Below the pieces are notes generated by a model that did no database searches, was not told the origin of the DNA, and saw only the letters and a list, made by a program, of their open reading frames with translations. DNA of 64,000 nucleotides from contig JAURFU010000004.1 of NCBI GenBank assembly GCA_030834165.1, positions 1-64,000 on the forward strand, written 5' to 3'. This document shows positions 45,347-47,644 of the stretch, in pieces. This DNA comes from Verrucomicrobiota bacterium. Lineage in GTDB: Bacteria; Verrucomicrobiota; Verrucomicrobiia; Opitutales; UBA953. Every line of letters begins with the position of its first letter. Positions within the stretch are counted from its first letter, which is position 1. The position numbers and the translations under genes are program-made.

Positions 45347-46249
45347 TCACTCCGGCAGGCCGACGATCGAACGGGCGTAGGCCCGCGCGTCGAAGGGCTG
45401 GAGGTCAGCCGGCTGTTCGCCGACGCCGATGAAGCGGACCGGCACGCCGAGTTCGCGGACCACGGCGACGAGCGCGCCGCCGCGGGCGGTGCCGTCGAGC
45501 TTGGTCACGATGAGGCCGGTGAGGCCGACGGCTTCATGGAAGATGCGCGCCTGTTCGATGGAGTTCGCGCCGAGCGAGCCGTCGAGGACGAGCCACTTCT
45601 CGTGCGGGGCGCCGGCGTGGGCCTTGGTCGTCACGCGCACGACCTTGCGGAGTTCCTCCAGCAGGTGCGCCTTGGTGTGCAGGCGCCCGGCGGTGTCGAG
45701 GATCACGAGGTCGGCGCCGCGCGCCACGCCCGCCTTGACGGCGTCGAACGCGACCGCCGCGGGATCGGCGCCGGCGGCGGCGCCGACGACTTCGACGCCG
45801 AGCCGGTCCGCCCAGGCGGAAAGTTGTTCGCCGGCCGCCGCGCGGAACGTGTCGCATGCGCCGAGCAGGCAGGACCGGCCCTCCTGGCGCCAGCGCCAGG
45901 CGAGCTTGGCCGCGGTCGTCGTCTTGCCGGCGCCGTTGACGCCGAGGAGCATGATGACGTGCGGCTTCGAGAGGGTGCTCGCCGGCGCGGCCTCGCCCCC
46001 CAGCGCGCGGACGATGCTTTCGGCCGCGGCTTCGGCGGGCGAGGTCTTGCGCAGGGCGGCGTCGGTCTTCCAGGCGGCGCGCGCCGCTTCGACCACCTCA
46101 TCGGCGGTGGCCGGGCCGAAGTCGCCCGCGATCAGGCGCTCACGCAGCTCTTCGGCGGCCGCGGCGTCCATCGGACGCGCCAGCAGGTTGGCCACGGCCT
46201 CGGCCGTGCGGCTCAGGCCCGCCTTCAGTCGCTCGAAGAAGCCCGCCAT
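45347..46249 (-). CDS. ftsY: Signal recognition particle receptor FtsY
   Basis: 300 aa; GVNGAGKTTTAAKLAW, DTAGRLHTKAHLLEELRK, TKLDGTARGG. Confidence 0.96.
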   Translation of the reverse strand: MAGFFERLKAGLSRTAEAVANLLARPMDAAAAEELRERLIAGDFGPATADEVVEAARAAWKTDAALRKTSPAEAAAESIVRALGGEAAPASTLSKPHVIMLLGVNGAGKTTTAAKLAWRWRQEGRSCLLGACDTFRAAAGEQLSAWADRLGVEVVGAAAGADPAAVAFDAVKAGVARGADLVILDTAGRLHTKAHLLEELRKVVRVTTKAHAGAPHEKWLVLDGSLGANSIEQARIFHEAVGLTGLIVTKLDGTARGGALVAVVRELGVPVRFIGVGEQPADLQPFDARAYARSIVGLPE

Positions 46250-46252
46250 GGC

Positions 46253-47035
46253 TCAGCCGCCCTCGGCCTTGCGCGGGTCGCGCCCCAGTTCTTCCTTGTA
46301 GCTGTCGAGGATGCCGTTGACGAAACGCTTGGACTCCTCGGTCGAGAACTCCTTGGCGATGTCGACGGCCTCGTTGATGCTCACGACCGGCGGGATGTCC
46401 GTCCGGCGCATGAGTTCGAAGACGGCCACGCGCAGGATGGCGAGGTCGACGCGCGCGATGCGGCCGAAGGCCCAGTTCTTGGCGTACTTGCCGATGACCT
46501 CGTCGATGAGGGCGAGGTCCCGGATGACGCCTTGGATGAGTTCCTCGGCGAAGGCGTAATACTCGCGGGGCTGCGGGCGCTCGGAGAAGAAGTCGAAGAG
46601 GCCCGTGACCATGTCGGGGTGGCGTTGGAGCTCCCAGGAGCAGAGGAACTGCATGGCCGCGACGCGGCTGTCATGGCGACGGTTGCGTTTGGCGGGCGGC
46701 GCGGCGGGGTCGGCCGCGGCGGGTTCGTCCGGGGCGACGATGGCGATCTCGACGCCGGCGGGCACGTTATGGCGGCGGAACGCGTCGACGGTCTTCTGGT
46801 TGGAGCCGATGATCTCGATGAGGCGGCGGTGGCTGCGGATCTCCTCGCGGAGGGCCGTGCGCGGTTCCTCGACCTGCGAGGGGAGCGGGAAGGGCCCCGA
46901 GATGCGGGCGCCGGAGCCGGCGACGCTGGCGATGATGTCGGCCGCGGTCTGGTCCGCCATGCGGTAGTCGACGCCTTTGATCCGGATGCGGATCTTGGCG
47001 CGCGCGGAGGCGGAAACAGGCGAGTCGTTGTCCAT
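46253..47035 (-). CDS. nusB: Fusion protein: N-terminal ribosomal protein S10 (NusE)-like domain plus C-terminal NusB
   Basis: 260 aa single ORF; residues ~14-100 align with S10 (KIRIRIKGVDYRMADQTAADI...GPFPLP...EIRSHRRLIEII...KTVDAFRRHNVPAGVEIAI); residues ~117-255 are NusB (RVAAMQFLCSWEL...VSINEAVDIAKEFSTEESKRFVNGILD). Confidence 0.92.
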   Translation of the reverse strand: MDNDSPVSASARAKIRIRIKGVDYRMADQTAADIIASVAGSGARISGPFPLPSQVEEPRTALREEIRSHRRLIEIIGSNQKTVDAFRRHNVPAGVEIAIVAPDEPAAADPAAPPAKRNRRHDSRVAAMQFLCSWELQRHPDMVTGLFDFFSERPQPREYYAFAEELIQGVIRDLALIDEVIGKYAKNWAFGRIARVDLAILRVAVFELMRRTDIPPVVSINEAVDIAKEFSTEESKRFVNGILDSYKEELGRDPRKAEGG

Positions 47036-47038
47036 CGT

Positions 47039-47575
47039 TCAGTTCTGGGCGAAGGGTTCCTGGCCGCCGCGCTTGCGTTCCTCGTCCTCGACCTGGTCGA
47101 GGCGGGCGCCGAGCGTGACGCGGTGACGGGCCATGGTGAGGGCGGCGTGGGCGAACTCCGTGCCGCGGTCCAGCGAACCCTGGCAGCGGGCGACGGCCTG
47201 CTCGCGGGTGTTCGTCACGACGATGCCGTTGATCATCGGGACTTCGGAGCGGATGGCCGCGTCCTGGAGGGCCTGGGCCGTCGAGTGCGCGATGATCTCG
47301 TGGTGCGGGGTGTCGCCGGCGACGACGACGCCGAGGGCGATGACGCAGTCATAATCACCGGTCATGGCCGACATGTAGGCGGCGTAAGGGATCTCGCCGG
47401 AGCCGGGGACGGCGACTTCGACGATCGAGGCGGCGGGCACGCCGGCGGCGCGCAGGCCTTTGATGGCGTTCTTCTTCAGGGCCTGGACCAGCTCGCCATT
47501 GTAACCCGCGGCCACGAGGGCGAAGCGGAGTTCGGCGCCATCGATGGCGTCAGGGGTGGGCTTGTCGAGGCTCAT
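47039..47575 (-). CDS. ribH: 6,7-dimethyl-8-ribityllumazine synthase
   Basis: FALVAAGYNGELVQAL, VPGSGEIPYAAYM, ALGVVVAGDTPHHEII; start trimmed to ATG 47575. Confidence 0.95.
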   Translation of the reverse strand: MSLDKPTPDAIDGAELRFALVAAGYNGELVQALKKNAIKGLRAAGVPAASIVEVAVPGSGEIPYAAYMSAMTGDYDCVIALGVVVAGDTPHHEIIAHSTAQALQDAAIRSEVPMINGIVVTNTREQAVARCQGSLDRGTEFAHAALTMARHRVTLGARLDQVEDEERKRGGQEPFAQN

Positions 47576-47644
47576 GGCGGAAGAACGGACGTCCGATGGA
47601 GTCGCTTCGGACCAAGCCTGCAAGCGGAAACAACCGTCCGCTTC

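Follow-up and report, generated by a model that had tools for sequence, protein, structure and literature searches.

A natural fusion of ribosomal protein S10 (NusE) to NusB is encoded by one open frame in the window analysed here, a stretch of 64,000 nucleotides at the start of contig JAURFU010000004.1 from a Verrucomicrobiota bacterium, and there is a strong probability that the product is a dedicated single-chain NusB-NusE antitermination factor. S10 is a textbook ribosomal protein that has a second job in transcription. When it is bound to NusB it keeps its ribosomal fold and cannot simultaneously occupy the ribosome, and the two partners together bind boxA RNA and contact NusG (PMC10931766). 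A first-pass annotation of this DNA had described both the fusion and the shortening of the ribosome-docking loop in its S10 part, and these observations stand; it had further proposed a module uncoupled from the ribosome, with a fixed 1:1 stoichiometry. This second part, which we infer from the loss of the loop, the presence of a separate rpsJ, a NusB-binding motif that never varies, the evidence of purifying selection and a two-domain model of high confidence, is the best-supported reading of the data.

Table 1. The fused gene, its parts and its neighbours in the window
Feature	Coordinates	Strand	Remarks
Fused NusE(S10)-NusB gene	46253..47035	(-)	260 aa; only NusB detected in the bin
N-terminal tail, residues 1-13 (MDNDSPVSASARA)	46997..47035	(-)	Resembles the first part of the tail that plain NusB has in sister species
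S10/NusE-like domain, residues 14-100	46736..46996	(-)	PF00338, rpsJ alignment, Foldseek S10 matches
NusB-binding helix motif, residues 21-30 (GVDYRMADQT)	46946..46975	(-)	Corresponds to E. coli S10 12-21
Truncated loop, residues 53-65	46841..46879	(-)	Site of the extended hairpin in ribosomal S10
Linker, residues 101-117	46685..46735	(-)	Ala/Pro/Asp-rich, fast evolving, low pLDDT
NusB domain, residues 118-250	46286..46684	(-)	TIGR01951; Foldseek NusB structures
ribH (6,7-dimethyl-8-ribityllumazine synthase)	47039..47623	(-)	Directly upstream of the fusion gene
ftsY (SRP receptor GTPase)	45347..46249	(-)	Directly downstream of the fusion gene

The ATG of the fusion gene lies 3 nt downstream of the ribH stop codon, and the uninterrupted frame between ribH and ftsY, its coordinates and the limits of its domains had been given correctly in the first-pass annotation. 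Residues 16-99 match the Pfam family Ribosomal_S10 (PF00338) with an E-value of 8.8e-12 and 45.6 bits for a cut-off of 21.2; the match covers positions 1-97 of the 98 in the profile, nearly its full length, placing this half in the uS10 superfamily and supplying the significant profile match that had been anticipated. Residues 122-246 match Pfam NusB (PF01029; E-value 3.9e-32, 111.9 vs 23.1 bits), and the NusB equivalog cut-off of TIGR01951 nusB (NCBIfam) is also passed (3.7e-38, 130.8 vs 88.35 bits). The S10 half scores below the rpsJ equivalog cut-offs (58.4 vs 72.75 bits for TIGR01049; 64.4 vs 85 bits for the NCBIfam model PRK00596 rpsJ, E-value 9.2e-18) because the domain is divergent, and it also lacks the extended ribosome loop of an rpsJ equivalog. 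In the freshwater Opitutales genus UBA953 of the GTDB taxonomy, a name in use in the literature (PMC11039613), the fusion was found in 38 of 55 searchable genomes, nine have a plain NusB, and nusB was not recovered from eight. With both domains above the curated Pfam cut-offs and the same fusion in 38 congeners, its natural occurrence is established.

Structure prediction with AlphaFold2 gave a pTM of 0.84 for the window protein and 0.83 for a fusion that is 67% identical. Both domains are well predicted and joined by a flexible linker, and pLDDT is below 50 for residues 1-12. Since NusB makes up about 54% of the chain, these pTM values indicate that the two domains are placed confidently relative to each other, as the first-pass annotation had suggested examining. 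The best PDB matches of the model in Foldseek are S10 chains and NusB chains, including those of 3imq and 3d3b, and TM(target) values of 0.82-0.88 against NusB structures (again including 3d3b and 3imq) assign the predicted C-terminal half to the all-helical NusB fold.

The S10 domain may dock onto NusB in the canonical manner. Residues Y18, E75 and E81 of NusB belong to the interface pocket (PMC9820117). Positions in S10 and NusB are numbered here after E. coli reference sequences; that of S10 aligned as expected, and in that of NusB the three cited residues fall on the correct letters. The equivalent of Y18, which is C132 in the window protein, is Cys or Val in 23 of the 34 distinct fusions and Tyr or Phe in all 70 plain NusB proteins that could be scored. 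E75 is often replaced by Gly or Ala in the fusions, and E81 by Asp in all of them and in almost all plain relatives. Docking may be altered, as both Y18 and E75 are replaced in many fusions: tethering may have lessened the need for these two contacts, or the dock may be a different one. Such substitutions could also loosen the docking enough to permit opening, as would befit a regulatory or autoinhibitory protein in which the tethered S10 domain caps the NusB groove, blocks free S10 and opens only upon a signal or RNA binding; intramolecular occupancy of the groove would likewise yield a high pTM. This explanation is nevertheless unlikely, given that the NusB-binding motif is invariant, that the constraint on the S10 domain is close to that on NusB, and that a Pfam search of the fusion protein revealed no additional regulatory domain.

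The S10 domain is 38% identical to E. coli S10 and 46% identical to the rpsJ product of the genus itself, and each alignment shows 10 loop residues to be missing, the very extent of the shortening that had been estimated at first. Across the genus, the conserved ribosome loop is shorter by 9-17 residues in every fusion. The fusion of G019 (L081, G019:C2:61165-61908), found in a genome that is 99% complete, is highly divergent and has a shorter loop still, with 17 residues missing.

Conservation was surveyed at the 59 rpsJ positions (E. coli numbering) that are at least 95% conserved, in 37 aligned fusions. Positions 51-58, at the tip of the loop, are missing from all 37, and the rpsJ-conserved residues K30, R31 (mostly) and K71 are changed. 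All 37 retain R7, D14, R16, D19, A22, G38, P39, P43, R68, H70, R72, T83 and G95, and Q20 is invariant across ten diverse fusions. The NusB-binding stretch D14-x-R16-x-x-D19-Q20 is thus preserved in the fused S10 domains; the NusE peptide YDHRLLDQS, which spans it, has been used to test the inhibition of NusB-NusE binding (PMC12652419). At position 86, ribosomal S10 of the genus and of the order has Glu, and all fusions have Ala or Val. The E. coli nusE71 mutation is A86D, and this position may matter for the transcription role.

Retention of the core S10 fold and of many rpsJ-conserved residues would also agree with an S10 domain that sometimes enters the 30S subunit and so keeps NusB on ribosomes or on subunits being assembled, the fusion acting as a factor in co-transcriptional assembly; a published study ties Nus factors to 30S biogenesis (PMC4807359). 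The probability of this explanation is smaller again, as the rpsJ-conserved loop is missing from every fusion, K30, R31 and K71 have disappeared wholly or almost wholly, and a normal rpsJ exists alongside. Canonical rpsJ was found in 31 of the 38 fused genomes, among them each of the 16 with a completeness of 90% or more, which settles the question of a separate gene raised by the first-pass annotation; the seven fused genomes that gave no match are 61-85% complete. The bin from which the window comes (81% complete) contains neither rpsJ nor rplC, and the additional absence of rplC indicates that the S10 operon is apparently not part of the bin. That the fusion might be the sole S10 of the cell, as the single S10 match in this bin could imply, was rejected because rplC is missing as well and near-complete fused congeners have both rpsJ and rplC.

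The domain most likely stems from a duplication of rpsJ within the lineage itself, since the S10 tree unites the fused domains and the rpsJ of the genus in one group, separate from the remaining rpsJ sequences of the order (97/98). Within it, 32 of 33 distinct fused S10 domains form a single clade (99/100); that of G019, on a very long branch (2.77), has no assigned position, and a topology uniting all fused domains is not rejected (p-AU 0.465). Three changes to or from the fused state are needed on the NusB tree, a count in which gain and loss are indistinguishable. If the domain arose once, the simplest history, in the direction that we infer, would be a gain followed by two losses, one of them in G057 and the other in eight small genomes (bins of 1.1-1.5 Mb) that group together. 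As the S10 domain was lost or never gained in these congeners, it is not indispensable. Plain NusB of congeners begins right after ribH with a short tail (e.g. VEDNPPPSSDSPETTPVKRNRR), in which no S10 remnant was found. This plain tail resembles both ends of the fused tail plus linker, which suggests that the S10 domain was inserted within the N-terminal tail of NusB.

Nei-Gojobori estimates of dN/dS in five clades range from 0.00 to 0.16 for the S10 domain and from 0.013 to 0.066 for NusB, and the value of the linker exceeds those of the flanking domains in most clades. By this sequence-based measure, the S10 domain is under purifying selection and, given such low ratios, functional and not debris. 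A near-neutral leftover, namely a duplicated rpsJ fragment that was fused by accident and has been tolerated, might explain the absence of the domain from nine congeners and the strong divergence in G019, but it is very improbable: already disfavoured by ratios well under 1 in all five clades, it does not fit with a fusion that 38 species-level genomes retain and whose motif residues do not vary.

In each of the 38 fused genomes the fusion is the single NusB match; the one in G024 is split across two contigs. Being common to 38 of 55 congeners, the fusion is due neither to chance nor to misassembly. The host sequences are chiefly metagenome-assembled genomes, yet an assembly or binning artefact is refuted by the same in-frame ribH-ftsY fusion in 38 genomes from many projects, at protein identities as low as about 60% to the fusion of the window. 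In the eight congeners with no NusB match, ribH is absent or at a contig start and ftsY is mostly missing or partial, so that an assembly gap is the likely reason for the unrecovered gene; a loss of NusB from them is not supported, the ribH-ftsY region being mostly unassembled. A search for 16S rRNA in the searchable genomes gave no match, even in complete ones.

The first-pass annotation, which had rightly guessed Verrucomicrobiota, had also advised looking for the NusB extension elsewhere in this phylum. It is widespread in the genus, and none was seen outside it among the best matches listed in overlapping samples of 223 genomes of the order and 384 of the class. In phage and plasmid records NusB and S10 were matched only separately, no single record reaching 80% coverage of the query, and a phage or plasmid origin of the fusion was rejected on this basis; like those of the order and class, these surveys span part of bacterial diversity. 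One record titled Polynucleobacter meluiroseus (CALPIW020000083.1, L088) holds a UBA953-type fusion that is 95% identical to the window protein, and is probably a mislabelled or misbinned metagenome-assembled genome. In the search of the order, the single-contig 2.3 Mb genome G116 (95% complete) matched neither the NusB nor the S10 part, which may reflect a missing stretch of sequence or be a true oddity.

Departures from the DQ of the NusB-binding motif, which is otherwise invariant, are found in the ribosomal S10 of some genomes of the genus. Its Q20 is replaced by His in G009, G020, G021, G023, G025, G031, G032 and G264, all of them members of a single fused clade except G020, a genome without a recovered nusB; D19 is replaced by Glu in two further fused genomes, G003 and G036 (e.g. 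L190 and L012 among these proteins). Neither Q20H nor D19E was seen in the ribosomal S10 of plain-NusB congeners or of the other families sampled, and the pattern amounts to two or three evolutionary events. Departures of this kind in fused lineages are expected if ribosomal S10 no longer serves NusB. As a lead, not proof, this small pattern points to relaxed NusB binding by ribosomal S10 in fused lineages. The chances are about even that the lineage is escaping from moonlighting, the NusE attached to NusB serving transcription only and the free S10 only the ribosome, the latter now giving up its binding to NusB (Q20H, D19E). If so, control of rRNA synthesis through the level of free S10 would be abolished.

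The fusion can be compared with several known systems. Both of its folds are matched, in sequence and in structure, by the E. coli NusB-NusE heterodimer (3d3b) and by the NusB-NusE-RNA complexes 3r2c and 3r2d, and the helix motif with which S10 binds NusB is conserved. It differs from the heterodimer in being one polypeptide instead of two, and in that its S10 part is a separate rpsJ paralogue without the ribosome loop. The absence of the loop is shared with the engineered NusB101-S10(delta loop) complex, in which a loop-less S10 is likewise paired with NusB and whose NusB chain is among the best structural matches of the fusion. The engineered complex consists of two chains, whereas in the fusion evolution has removed the loop and joined the chains. 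The fusion looks like an evolved counterpart of engineered NusB-S10Δloop, with a loop-less NusE permanently attached to NusB. Luo and co-workers reportedly found in 2008 that loop-deleted S10 stays active in antitermination; that it pairs with NusB is stated in the title of PDB 3imq. Ribosomal uS10 (rpsJ) would be the ancestor of the fused domain within the genus; compared with it, the fused domain has lost most of the loop, evolves much faster and sits at ribH-ftsY, away from the rpsJ of the genome. Plain Opitutales NusB occupies the same place after ribH, and the NusB part is 72-83% identical in congeners without the fusion; it differs in having no S10 domain and an always aromatic Y18. No report of a natural S10-NusB fusion was found in the open-access literature, and reports may exist elsewhere.

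For the dedicated single-chain factor, the following course of events can be proposed. The rpsJ of the lineage would have been duplicated, and the copy would have shed its ribosome-insertion loop and been placed within the N-terminal tail of NusB. In the protein, the S10-like domain would fold back onto the NusB domain by means of the linker of about 17 residues, and this intramolecular pair would bind boxA-type RNA and enter the elongation complex, in contact with RNA polymerase and NusG, as the NusB-S10 heterodimer does elsewhere. The fusion would be excluded from the ribosome, with which the unfused S10 would stay, resulting in a putative division of labour between the two proteins. The likely gains would be a fixed stoichiometry, a high effective concentration and no contest with ribosome assembly for S10.

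Other bacteria assemble their NusB-NusE factor by borrowing S10 from the ribosome, and the fusion would be a ready-made, single-chain version of it. The dual use of S10 may be a regulatory coupling of rRNA synthesis to free S10, or it may be a historical accident, and the two are hard to tell apart by experiment as long as both jobs fall to one protein. A separate loop-less NusE built into NusB, next to a normal S10, would amount to a natural separation-of-function experiment, for which sister species with and without the fusion are available for comparison. The fusion also offers a single-chain protein for structural and boxA-binding studies.
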